A DNA stretch of 50,989 nucleotides from Deltaproteobacteria bacterium (lineage in GTDB: Bacteria > Desulfobacterota > Desulfobaccia > Desulfobaccales > 0-14-0-80-60-11): NCBI GenBank assembly GCA_016874915.1, contig VGSW01000004.1, positions 1 to 50,989 of the forward strand, given 5' to 3'. Positions within the stretch are counted from its first letter, which is position 1, and every line of letters starts with the position of its first letter. Below the pieces are notes generated by a model. The model made no database searches. It was given only the letters and a program-made list of their open reading frames with translations, and was not told where the DNA came from. Below are positions 4,112 to 19,753 of this stretch, piece by piece. The position numbers and the translations under genes were made by a program.

Positions 4112-4136
4112 TGCTCATTGCTCACTGCTCACTGCC
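4112..4136. repeat. Heptad tandem array (tgctcat/tgctcac x3)
   Basis: tgctcat tgctcac tgctcac tgcc; supplies the C-terminus AVSSEQ* of the minus-strand CDS. Confidence 0.85.
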
Positions 4137-15101: not shown

Positions 15102-15152
15102 GTAGCCGCAGGCTTTAGCCGGCGCCGGCACAGGCTGGAAAGCCTGTGCACC
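15102..15152 (+). repeat. REP-like double palindrome (GTAG foot)
   Basis: gtagccgcaggctttagccggcgccggcacaggctggaaagcctgtgcacc. Confidence 0.7.
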
Positions 15153-15166
15153 TCAAGAGGTGGCCC

Positions 15167-16411
15167 ATGCAATTCCAAAATGACCTGGACACCTTAAGCC
15201 GCATCATGACCACCATCGAGGAGTCCAATCAGCTCAAGGACCTGGACGCCCTTCTGGACCGGGTCTTGCTGGACGCCCGCCGTCTGACCCAGGCCGACGC
15301 CGGCTCCATTTTCCTGGTGGAAAACAACGTCCTCAAGTTCAGCTATATTCACAACGATACCCTGTTCACCACCCCCAGCAATAAATACATCTATTCCAGT
15401 CAGACCCTGGAGATCAACAACGAGTCCCTGGCGGGCTACGCGGCCAGCACCGGCGAGACCGTGATTCTCGACGACGCCTACCAGATTCCGGCCCACATGC
15501 CCTTTTCCTTCAATCCGTCATTCGATGAAGCCTCGGGCTACCGCACCCGGTCCATGATGGTGGTGCCCTTGAAAAGCAGCCGGGAAAAAATCATCGGAGT
15601 GCTGGAAATAATCAACGCCCTGGATGGACAAAAAAAAGTCATTCCTTTTAGCCATCGGGACACCCTGGTCTTAAATTATTTCGCCCAACACGCCGCGGGG
15701 GGCATCGAACGGGCCATGATGACCCGGGAGATCATCCTCCGGATGATCAAAATGTGCGAACTTCGGGACCCCCATGAAACCGGAGCCCACGCCCACCGGG
15801 TGGCGGCCTATGCCGCGGAAATCTACCAGCAATGGGCTCTAAACCGCGGCATTGCCCCGGAAGAGATAAAACGGATGCGGGACCTCTTGCGGCTGGCGGC
15901 CATGCTCCACGACCTGGGCAAGATTGCCATCTCCGACTTGATCCTGAAGAAACCCGGAAAACTGGACCCCGAAGAATATCAAATCATGAAATACCACACC
16001 ATTCACGGGGCCCGTCTCTTTGAAAACGCCACTTCGGACCTGGACGCGCTCTCCGCGGAAATCGCTCTCAATCACCACGAAAGGTGGGACGGCCAGGGCT
16101 ACCCGGGCAAGATTGGCAACATTTACGCCGATCACCCCCCCATGGGCGAAGGCAAGAAGGGGGAGGAAATCCCCCTGGCCGGGCGCATCGTCGCGCTGGC
16201 GGACATTTATGACGCCTTGGTTTCCCGGCGGGCCTATAAGGAGCCTTTCACCGAAGAGCAGGCCCTGACTTTCCTTCGGGAACAATCGGGGCAGGCTTTC
16301 GACCCGGAAGTGGTGGCGGCCTTTTTTGCCATTTATGACATCATCGGGGCCATTCGGGAGAAGTACCTGGAAAATTCGGTGAGCAGTGAGCTATTAGCTG
16401 AGAGCAGTTAG
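15167..16411 (+). CDS. GAF + HD-GYP cyclic-di-GMP phosphodiesterase
   Basis: GAF-like N-term; MLHDLGKIAISDLIL...NHHERWDGQGYPG...VALADIYDALVSRRAYK. Confidence 0.93.
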   Translation: MQFQNDLDTLSRIMTTIEESNQLKDLDALLDRVLLDARRLTQADAGSIFLVENNVLKFSYIHNDTLFTTPSNKYIYSSQTLEINNESLAGYAASTGETVILDDAYQIPAHMPFSFNPSFDEASGYRTRSMMVVPLKSSREKIIGVLEIINALDGQKKVIPFSHRDTLVLNYFAQHAAGGIERAMMTREIILRMIKMCELRDPHETGAHAHRVAAYAAEIYQQWALNRGIAPEEIKRMRDLLRLAAMLHDLGKIAISDLILKKPGKLDPEEYQIMKYHTIHGARLFENATSDLDALSAEIALNHHERWDGQGYPGKIGNIYADHPPMGEGKKGEEIPLAGRIVALADIYDALVSRRAYKEPFTEEQALTFLREQSGQAFDPEVVAAFFAIYDIIGAIREKYLENSVSSELLAESS

Positions 16412-16710: not shown

Positions 16711-16747
16711 TCAACCGCAACCGCTAACTGCCAACCGCCAATTGCTA
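16711..16747. repeat. Heptad array, right arm (inverted relative to 16379)
   Basis: tcaaccgcaaccgctaactgccaaccgccaattgcta. Confidence 0.85.
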
Positions 16748-18079
16748 ATGATCGACATCCTAATCCATAACGCCCTGGTGCTGACCCTGGAGCCGGGCGC
16801 GCCGCCCCTTATGCCGGGGTACGTGGCGGTCCAGGGGAGCCGCATCGCGGCGGTGGGCCAGGCGGGCCCGGACGCCCTACCTGCGGCCCGGGAGAGCCTG
16901 GACGCCCGGGGCGGCCTGGTCCTGCCCGGCCTGGTCAACACCCATTGCCATGCGCCCATGACCTGGTTCCGGGGCCTGGCCGACGACCTGCCCCTTCAGA
17001 GGTGGCTCCATGATTTCATCTTCCCCCTGGAACGCGACTGGCTCAATCCGGACCGGGCGTATTGGGGGGCGCTGCTGGCCGCCGCGGAGCTCATCCGGGG
17101 AGGCGTCACCACCGTGGCCGACGGGTATTTTTACGAGTCCGAGGTCCGGAGGGCCTTCCACCACGCAGGGCTGCGGGCGGTGGCGGCCCAGGGCGTGGTG
17201 GACTTCCCGGCGCCGGGAGTGCCCAACCCCCGGGACAATCTCAAAGTGGCCGGGGAGTTCGTGGAATCAGGGAAGGATTTTGAGGGCCGCATCACCTCCA
17301 CGGTCTTTTGTCACTCGCTGTACACCTGCGGCGCAGAGACCTTGAAGGCCGCCAAGTCCCTTACCCGCACCCGGGGCCTGCCGCTGTTCCTGCACCTTTC
17401 CGAAACCCGCCAGGAAGTGGAGGACATCCGCCGCCAGACCGGCCTCAGCCCGGTGGCTTATCTGGACCGCCTGGGAATTCTGGATGAACTGACGGTGGCG
17501 GTCCATGCCGTGTGGCTTACCCAAGAAGAGCAAGACCTGCTGGCCCTTCGGGGGGTGAAGGTGAGCCATTGCCCCGAAAGCAACCTGAAGCTGGCTGCCG
17601 GGGCGGCTCCCATCCCGGATTTACTGGCTCGGGGCGTAACCGTGGGATTAGGTTCCGATGGGGCCGCATCCAACAACAACCTGGACCTGTGGGGGGAAAT
17701 GAGCCTGGCCGCCCGGCTGCACAAGGTCTGGCGCCATGACCCCACGGTTATGTCCGCCCCCCAGGTGCTGGCCCTGGCCACCCGGGAGGGGGCCCGGGTC
17801 CTGGGGCTGGAAGGCCGAACCGGCACCCTGGCCCCCGGCAAAGAGGCCGACCTCATTGTGCTGGACTTGCGCCAGCCCCACCTCACGCCCCTTTTTGACC
17901 CTTACTCCCACCTGGTCTATGCCGCCCGGGCCCGGGACGTGCGGGACGTCATGGTGGGAGGGCGCTGGCTTTTGCAAAATGGCGAGCTAACCACTCTAGA
18001 CTGGCCGGAAATCGCCGGGCAGATCCGCGCCGGCAGCCGGGACCTGGCCGCGTTCTGCCGCGGTCTGCGCCGCCCTTGA
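16748..18079 (+). CDS. mtaD: TRZ/ATZ-family amidohydrolase (5-methylthioadenosine / S-adenosylhomocysteine deaminase-like)
   Basis: GGLVLPGLVNTHCHAPMTWFRGLADDLPLQRWL...HLSETRQEV...VSHCPESNLKLAAG...VGLGSDGAASNNNLDLWGEM. Confidence 0.88.
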   Translation: MIDILIHNALVLTLEPGAPPLMPGYVAVQGSRIAAVGQAGPDALPAARESLDARGGLVLPGLVNTHCHAPMTWFRGLADDLPLQRWLHDFIFPLERDWLNPDRAYWGALLAAAELIRGGVTTVADGYFYESEVRRAFHHAGLRAVAAQGVVDFPAPGVPNPRDNLKVAGEFVESGKDFEGRITSTVFCHSLYTCGAETLKAAKSLTRTRGLPLFLHLSETRQEVEDIRRQTGLSPVAYLDRLGILDELTVAVHAVWLTQEEQDLLALRGVKVSHCPESNLKLAAGAAPIPDLLARGVTVGLGSDGAASNNNLDLWGEMSLAARLHKVWRHDPTVMSAPQVLALATREGARVLGLEGRTGTLAPGKEADLIVLDLRQPHLTPLFDPYSHLVYAARARDVRDVMVGGRWLLQNGELTTLDWPEIAGQIRAGSRDLAAFCRGLRRP

Positions 18080-18107
18080 CCTGGGCCGCAGCAATTGCCA
18101 CAATATA

Positions 18108-18195
18108 AGCAGTTAGCTGTTAGCAGTTTGCAGTTAGCGATCTTTCAATGCCAACCGCTAACCGCCAGCCGCCAACTGCCAACTGCCAACTGCCA
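18108..18195. repeat. Inverted pair of heptad arrays (18108-18139 / 18151-18195)
   Basis: agcagttagctgttagcagtttgcagttagcg ... ccaaccgctaaccgccagccgccaactgccaactgccaactgcca. Confidence 0.9.
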
Positions 18196-18208
18196 ATGCC
18201 AAAAGACT

Positions 18209-19753
18209 ATGCCCAAAACCCGACTCCAGTACCAGGAATCTCTGGCCGAGCTGCTGCAAATCTCCCTCACCACCACGGAGGTGCAGCGCCTCATCCATGA
18301 CGTCACCACCTGTACGGTGGAATGGGAGGAGCGGCCGGCCACTACGGTGGCGCCGCACGCCCGGGGGCTGGAGTTTTTCCCCTGCTATGCTCTCTATTTT
18401 CAGCGCCACCCTCTGGAAATCAAAGGCACCATCTACCCCAACCTGGCCACCGGCGACGGCGAAGGTCTGTCCCACCTGGTGCGGTTGCAGCTTCCCGACG
18501 TGCTCCTGGACATGCGGCTCCACACTTCCCAATCTACCTTTCTGTTGTCGCCTTTTCACATTCGGTTTCTGAGCATCCTCTTCGGCCGCCTGGTGCTGCA
18601 CCATTTGTCGCAAACTCCCGAAGGCCAAGCCATCCTGCCGTCCTTTACTCCTTATTCCCTGGAGGAGCAGGTGGTGGCCGGGTATCTCCAAAGTCTGGAG
18701 TGGGCGCCTTGCGCCACCATCAAGCTGGACGCCCAGGACAACCCTTACATCGGCTCCCTGCTGCACAGCGCCGCGGCCCTGAAGCGCTGCGAGATGCCCG
18801 GCAGCCCCGGGGAAGAGGCGGTGATCCGGGCCTGGCGGCTCTTCAAGCGCCTGCTCTATTACTCGGTGGAAGGGGAGCGGCTGCTCACCGGCTTTGCCAT
18901 CATGTCCGCCATCCGGCCTCTGGAGTATTACCGGAAAAACTGGCCCCAGTTGCTGCTCTACCATCCCGCCAACCACACCTCCCTGGACGAGGGGCTCCAA
19001 TCCATCAAGCAATTTTTGCTGAACGCCGACGGCCGCAACACCTTCCTGGCCCTTTATGGCGGCAAAATTATCGGTCTGCTCCAGGTGGATCAGGGCACTC
19101 ACCGCCAGCTTACCACGGTGAAACCCTGGCGGGAGGTGCTACCCCTGGCCACTATATCCTACCGGGGCCGGGTCAACTTCTGGATCGCCCTCAAGGGCCG
19201 TCACAGCCCCCGCATCCCTTTGTCGCTGCTGGAGTACCGCCACGGCCACCTCCACATTCCCCTGTTTCAGGACACCTTCTGGCAGGAGCTGGAGCGCCAG
19301 TTAAAGGAAGTCTGCCCCGGGGTGCGCTCTGATGCCGTTCCCCGCCTAAAAAATCTGCTCCAATTGATCCGCCGGGTGGGCCACGGCGCCATTATTCTCC
19401 TGGGCTTGAATGATACGCAATTGGACTCCGCGGATTTTCCGGTGGAGAACCAGGTGCGCCTGGCCCAATCCGTGCCCCTGGCCGAGAAATGGCAGCGCCA
19501 CCTCCTGGGCCTGTCCCGCTCCGACGGGGCCTTGATTTTCAACGACCGCCTGGAGGCCTGCCAGTTCCGGGCCCGGCTCAAGGCCACGGTGCTGCGCCTG
19601 CCGTCGGAGCCGGGGGACCTGGGGAGCGGCATCCGCCACCAGGTGACCCGGGAATTCACCGCTTTCTGTCCGTCGGTCCTGGGTATTTGCGTCTCCCAGG
19701 ACGCCCATATTTCCCTGTACCGCCATGGCAAGCTGGTGAGCCGGTTGTTTTAA
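18209..19753 (+). CDS. Protein with N-terminal sensor-like region and divergent C-terminal DisA_N/DAC-like domain (candidate diadenylate cyclase family)
   Basis: C-term GHGAIILLGLND...LLGLSRSDGALIFNDRLEACQFRARL...GSGIRHQVTREFTAFCPSVLGICVSQDAHISLYRHGKLV. This aligns by eye with the DAC DGA(L/V)(V/I)I and G(T)RHR...SE..A...VS...G.IS...G motifs. Confidence 0.65.
   Translation: MPKTRLQYQESLAELLQISLTTTEVQRLIHDVTTCTVEWEERPATTVAPHARGLEFFPCYALYFQRHPLEIKGTIYPNLATGDGEGLSHLVRLQLPDVLLDMRLHTSQSTFLLSPFHIRFLSILFGRLVLHHLSQTPEGQAILPSFTPYSLEEQVVAGYLQSLEWAPCATIKLDAQDNPYIGSLLHSAAALKRCEMPGSPGEEAVIRAWRLFKRLLYYSVEGERLLTGFAIMSAIRPLEYYRKNWPQLLLYHPANHTSLDEGLQSIKQFLLNADGRNTFLALYGGKIIGLLQVDQGTHRQLTTVKPWREVLPLATISYRGRVNFWIALKGRHSPRIPLSLLEYRHGHLHIPLFQDTFWQELERQLKEVCPGVRSDAVPRLKNLLQLIRRVGHGAIILLGLNDTQLDSADFPVENQVRLAQSVPLAEKWQRHLLGLSRSDGALIFNDRLEACQFRARLKATVLRLPSEPGDLGSGIRHQVTREFTAFCPSVLGICVSQDAHISLYRHGKLVSRLF

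Follow-up and report, generated by a model that had tools for sequence, protein, structure and literature searches.

Cyclic di-AMP (c-di-AMP) signalling is known mainly from Gram-positive bacteria, where the synthases are CdaA, DisA and CdaS. CdaA (DacA) has N-terminal membrane helices and a diadenylate cyclase (DAC) domain with the canonical GTRHR motif, and its gene adjoins that of CdaR. DisA is soluble, and its DAC domain is N-terminal and followed by DNA-binding domains. Two other architectures are encoded in the phylum studied here and have a C-terminal DAC domain. The DACND-DACNH-DAC proteins (PF21749, PF21750 and PF02457) occur in other families of the phylum; they are soluble, with around 480 residues and a long front part. 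The DACNV-DAC proteins (PF21751 and PF02457) associate a sensor with the DAC domain and are found in three genomes of the same class.

Here, we describe a gene on the forward strand at positions 18209 to 19753 of the window (the whole stretch of 50,989 nucleotides that was analysed), which belongs to a fragmented assembly (302 contigs). It encodes a protein of 514 residues from an ATG start. A longer alternative frame starts with a TTG at 18095; in most orthologues the alignment begins at the ATG at 18209. A sequence-only reading of this gene had proposed a DAC-like enzyme that is divergent and preceded by a long sensor-like region, and this is now supported by sequence, profile and structure evidence. 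The DAC domain corresponds approximately to residues 391–514 (positions 19379 to 19750; all features of the gene are on the forward strand). The four DAC-type motifs that had been pointed out were all located, and in the proposed order. HGAIILLG (residues 392–399, 19382 to 19405) is equivalent to the GALI motif, and its I395 is invariant. DGALIF (residues 439–444) includes the DGA motif (residues 439–441, 19523 to 19531) with the ribose-binding Asp439, invariant in all 21 full-length orthologues. GSGIRHQ (residues 472–478) includes GIRHQ, the equivalent of GxRHR (residues 474–478, 19628 to 19642), where G474, R476, H477 and Q478 are invariant. Finally, LGICVSQDAHISLYRHGKLV (residues 491–510) contains VSQD, the equivalent of (V/I)SEE (residues 495–498, 19691 to 19702), with S496 and the acidic D498 invariant in 21/21 orthologues.

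The only Pfam family matched by the 514-residue protein was DAC (residues 391–509), with a score below the cut-off of the model (E = 0.15, 12.1 bits for a cut-off of 27 bits). DAC was matched at E ≤ 1 by 18 of the 21 full-length orthologues (best E = 4.5e-5), and any other family by at most one of them. Genome searches with the DAC model pointed to one and the same C-terminal location in almost every orthologue across the class, and one orthologue reached the 27-bit cut-off when neighbouring in-frame matches were summed. We then compared a profile of residues 376–514 with those of three independent DAC groups using HHalign, with 60 column-shuffled controls as a null. The best match was the DAC part of DACND-DACNH-DAC proteins (score 54.5, null maximum 24.6), followed by DACNV-DAC proteins (44.0, null maximum 19.6) and canonical CdaA (34.9, null maximum 24.4); a small soluble DAC with GSRHM scored 36.5, a value given without a shuffled null. 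The structure prediction that the sequence-only reading had called for also gave a DAC fold. The AlphaFold model had a pLDDT of mostly 81–93 in the DAC part, lower in the loop of the RHQ motif (64–71, residues 461–480) and in the last four residues. Foldseek matched it to 40 PDB structures at E ≤ 0.001 (E from 1.5e-6 to 1.2e-4), all of which were DAC structures: DisA, CdaA, DacA, CdaM and 2fb5, a DAC protein of B. cereus. A large gap separated these from the next match (E = 0.35). Searches of PDB sequences with phmmer and hmmsearch, the latter including the profile, gave no match, and the fold evidence therefore rests on the model. The 514-residue protein had no match in PADLOC and NCBIfam. 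We regard the assignment of residues ~391–514 to a diverged DAC domain as firm, as a prediction from profiles and predicted fold.

The front part of the protein could be divided in three regions using AlphaFold models and the orthologue alignment. The first (residues ~1–145, 18209 to 18643) is modelled as two helices, an antiparallel beta-sheet and two helices, and carries the conserved LLSPFHxRFLSxLFG. The second (residues ~146–292, 18644 to 19084) is mixed alpha/beta, with the conserved blocks PYSLEEQVVAGYLQSL, PCATIKLDAQDNPYIGS, WRLFKRLLYYSxEGERLFTGFA and LLNADGRTTFLA. The third is a linker (residues ~293–390, 19085 to 19378; boundaries inferred from the model) made of strands and then of helices 355–368 and 376–390 leading into the DAC domain, with the conserved block IPLFQDIFWQELE. 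No stretch of the protein is as hydrophobic as the membrane helices of CdaA (hydropathy peak of 1.5 versus 2.4 for the CdaA of the same genome), and there was no match to the Pfam profile CdaA_N.

The resemblance of this front part to the DACN* sensors, which had also been suggested, extends to the layout of the protein and not to any detectable domain. We found no Pfam domain in residues ~1–375 of this protein and of 20 orthologues, including DACNV, DACND and DACNH (PF21751, PF21749, PF21750). The absence of these three is informative because the same models matched the relatives scanned alongside. HHalign comparisons of the N-terminal and middle parts with the front parts of DACNV, DACND and DACNH proteins remained within the shuffled null. 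A DACNH-like middle region, suspected from the full-length HHalign, was not retained since this region alone scored 18.2 against the DACNH-linker region, for a null maximum of 20.0. By these searches, the front part does not belong recognisably to any of the three sensor families. A separate AlphaFold model of residues 1–374 (pLDDT 76.5, pTM 0.82) had no fold match at E ≤ 0.001 in PDB and BFVD, the two libraries to which the term unmatched applies. Residues 1–375 contain long invariant blocks, and the constraint on them is no weaker than that on the DAC domain (dN/dS of 0.08–0.22 versus 0.08–0.23).

We identified orthologues in 24 of the 29 genomes of the class, which is Desulfobaccia according to its named members. 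A profile search of 395 genomes across the phylum returned a single match outside the class, a stretch of 67 columns of the DAC domain (E = 3.8e-4). Both halves of the gene had a dN/dS of 0.08–0.23 in five orthologue pairs. We rejected a mobile or phage origin; plasmids, phages and viral contigs gave no match.

Among the 124 columns of the DAC domain 31 are invariant, and these include all eight motif positions that we checked (hypergeometric, 7e-6). The replacement of RHR by RHQ had prompted the question of a changed product or a loss of activity. The change is indeed present (Q478), but it is not a recent loss of function, since RHQ is shared by 21/21 full-length orthologues. Gln478 is, as judged from these orthologues, a family hallmark under purifying selection and not a sign of decay. 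When compared with GxRHRxA, the family retains G-x-R-H, whereas the third R is replaced by Q and the A by T in 21/21 orthologues. This departure, with the ATP-contacting Arg and His kept, identifies the predicted protein as a diverged member of the DAC superfamily and not as a canonical DAC. Position 475, that of the Thr, is M, I or T, with Ile or Met in 18 of the 21 orthologues; the canonical Thr (GTRHQ) is kept in three, all from the second family of the order. At the (V/I)SEE position the Glu is replaced by the invariant Asp498 (SQD). Such conservation of an acidic residue at the metal site argues for a retained nucleotide and metal site.

These positions can be compared with the ATP-bound structure of Listeria CdaA, for which 10 active-site residues were listed, including Thr102, Arg103 and His104 (review PMC7288161). 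ATP is contacted by the Leu of GALI, the Asp of DGA, Thr-Arg-His of GxRHR and both Ser and Glu of SEE, in addition to main-chain contacts at three places; this list does not contain the Arg at the third position of RHR (PMC7288161). The Thr of GTRHR contacts phosphate in CdaA. Mutants of DacA, CdaS and CdaM in which RHR was changed to AAA as a block are inactive (PMC3328451, PMC4568413, PMC13022847). In the literature that we found, RHR was mutated only as a whole motif, with no mutant of the third Arg alone, which we infer to be dispensable. This position differs among DAC subfamilies: GTRHR or GARHR in CdaA and DACNV proteins, GSRHM in small soluble DACs, and GAR[YF]N in DACND proteins.

The family shares with CdaA the DAC fold, the DGA motif and the RH motif, but differs in its front part, its RHQ motif and its neighbourhood. 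It is soluble like DisA, the best Foldseek match (3c1y, E = 1.5e-6), but its DAC domain is C-terminal with nothing DisA-like before it; no Pfam domain other than DAC, including the DNA-binding type of DisA, was found in the protein. The S-x-D arrangement is common to this family and to its DACND-DAC and DACNV-DAC relatives, whereas CdaA has S-E-E. DACND-DACNH-DAC proteins also depart from RHR, with GAR[YF]N instead of RHQ, but their DACND and DACNH domains are undetectable in our family, and DACNH was absent from the class at the cut-off. The segment PxALGxVISxD of DACNV-DAC proteins resembles PSVLGICVSQD of the protein described here, although the former keep GxRHR and the DACNV domain and the latter has neither. 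We made three side observations on these relatives. Soluble DACs of ~195 residues with GSRHM instead of GTRHR are encoded in several genomes of the class (four loci). GAR[YF]N replaces GxRHR in 10 out of 10 fetched DACND-DACNH-DAC proteins, which may be non-canonical or inactive. Most fetched copies of CdaA in the class (L038:1171-1974 and other loci) have S-E-T at the S-E-E of the metal site.

We think it probable, from the sequence and the model, that the product of this gene is a diadenylate cyclase of the cytoplasm, soluble and under sensor control, which makes c-di-AMP. That the motifs match by chance in a protein that is not a DAC might be argued from the sub-threshold Pfam match of the single sequence and from the failure of even a profile to match PDB sequences. 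Yet, this is contradicted by Foldseek, by the profile-profile comparisons and by the family-wide Pfam matches; it is extremely improbable and, as far as fold prediction goes, has already been refuted. A more serious competitor is a catalytically silent DAC, i.e., a module binding ATP or c-di-AMP and either informing the N-terminal region of nucleotide levels or acting as a regulator of CdaA. Such a receptor would also conserve its binding pocket, the genome already encodes CdaA, and the motif has Gln for the third Arg and, in 18 of 21 orthologues, Ile or Met for the preceding Thr. But there is no variation at D439, R476, H477, S496 or the metal-site acid D498 among the orthologues, the metal acid is not obviously needed by a receptor, and three second-family orthologues retain GTRHQ. 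An active synthase is favoured over a dead one because the third Arg is outside the list of ATP contacts and this position is R, M or N in related DAC groups; we consider the silent DAC possible but rather unlikely.

The RHQ site could also have another chemistry, making a linear or mixed dinucleotide or using ADP, GTP or NAD. The substitution is invariant, lies beside residues that bind phosphate in a family that shows purifying selection, and has counterparts in the fixed departures of other DAC groups (GARYN, GSRHM). However, base recognition in CdaA involves the leucine of the GALI motif and a main-chain contact, not RHR (PMC7288161), the hydrophobic I395 is kept, and our analysis gave no sign of another base. 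We hold a change of chemistry to be distinctly unlikely.

The same genome encodes separately a CdaA operon of the ordinary type, where we read the second ORF after CdaA as CdaR. A 7TMR-HDED protein (PgpH-type, a candidate hydrolase) was found in 31 of the 31 genomes searched, including this one. A c-di-AMP cycle is plausible in this genome because it encodes both, and for the same reason the sensor-DAC protein would add a second synthase under separate control. A search of the genome for c-di-AMP riboswitches (RF00379) found none. In the first family of genomes, the most frequent co-directional neighbour is an amidohydrolase (Amidohydro_1), here just upstream (16742 to 18079, forward strand). 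It precedes the gene in many first-family genomes and is not adjacent to it in the order's second family; it is context and not a proven partner. Second-family neighbours include Hsp20-Lon downstream in two genomes, and a divergent histidine kinase adjoins the gene in one genome. A PgpH-like neighbour suspected in one genome turned out to be a Cache-PAS histidine kinase. None of the neighbours was constant across the genomes examined.

We made other observations in the window. The interval that separates the amidohydrolase gene from the DAC gene contains two arrays of 7-base repeats that face each other (18108–18138 and 18150–18196; AGCAGTT and the near complement GCCAACC); together they make up a long hairpin with imperfect pairing (z = −2.5). 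Further 7-base arrays are found at 4112, 9361, 12417, 16403, 19860, 29850, 30010, 39978 and 43129. A GAF and HD-domain (HD_5) protein, which may be a c-di-GMP hydrolase, is encoded two genes upstream of the DAC gene (15146–16411); such a protein also adjoins the amidohydrolase and DAC genes in another genome (G009).

In the mechanism that we propose for the sensor-regulated cyclase, the N-terminal region of ~375 residues would bind a ligand or a partner and control the face-to-face encounter of two DAC domains. Each half-site would hold one ATP and a metal ion bound by Asp498, and the pair would produce c-di-AMP and two pyrophosphates. Gln478, replacing an Arg outside the published list of ATP contacts, would probably be tolerated, perhaps altering the rate or the strictness of sensor control. 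The product would join the c-di-AMP pool of the constitutive CdaA and be cleared by the PgpH-type candidate hydrolase of the same genome.

With its large unmatched front part, the protein probably represents a stress sensor of a new type, whose signal would be written as c-di-AMP. We would give less credit, and regard as unlikely, the broader proposal of a class-specific, signal-gated cyclic-dinucleotide synthase where an undescribed sensor fold of ~370 residues is joined to a fixed-RHQ DAC with different regulation or product. The family provides a natural test of the need for the third Arg in RHR, a residue long counted as belonging to an essential motif and, in the literature found, mutated only together with its neighbours. 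The class-wide conservation of an additional DAC with a large unmatched sensor suggests that sulfate reducers and their relatives may have stimulus-gated c-di-AMP synthesis.
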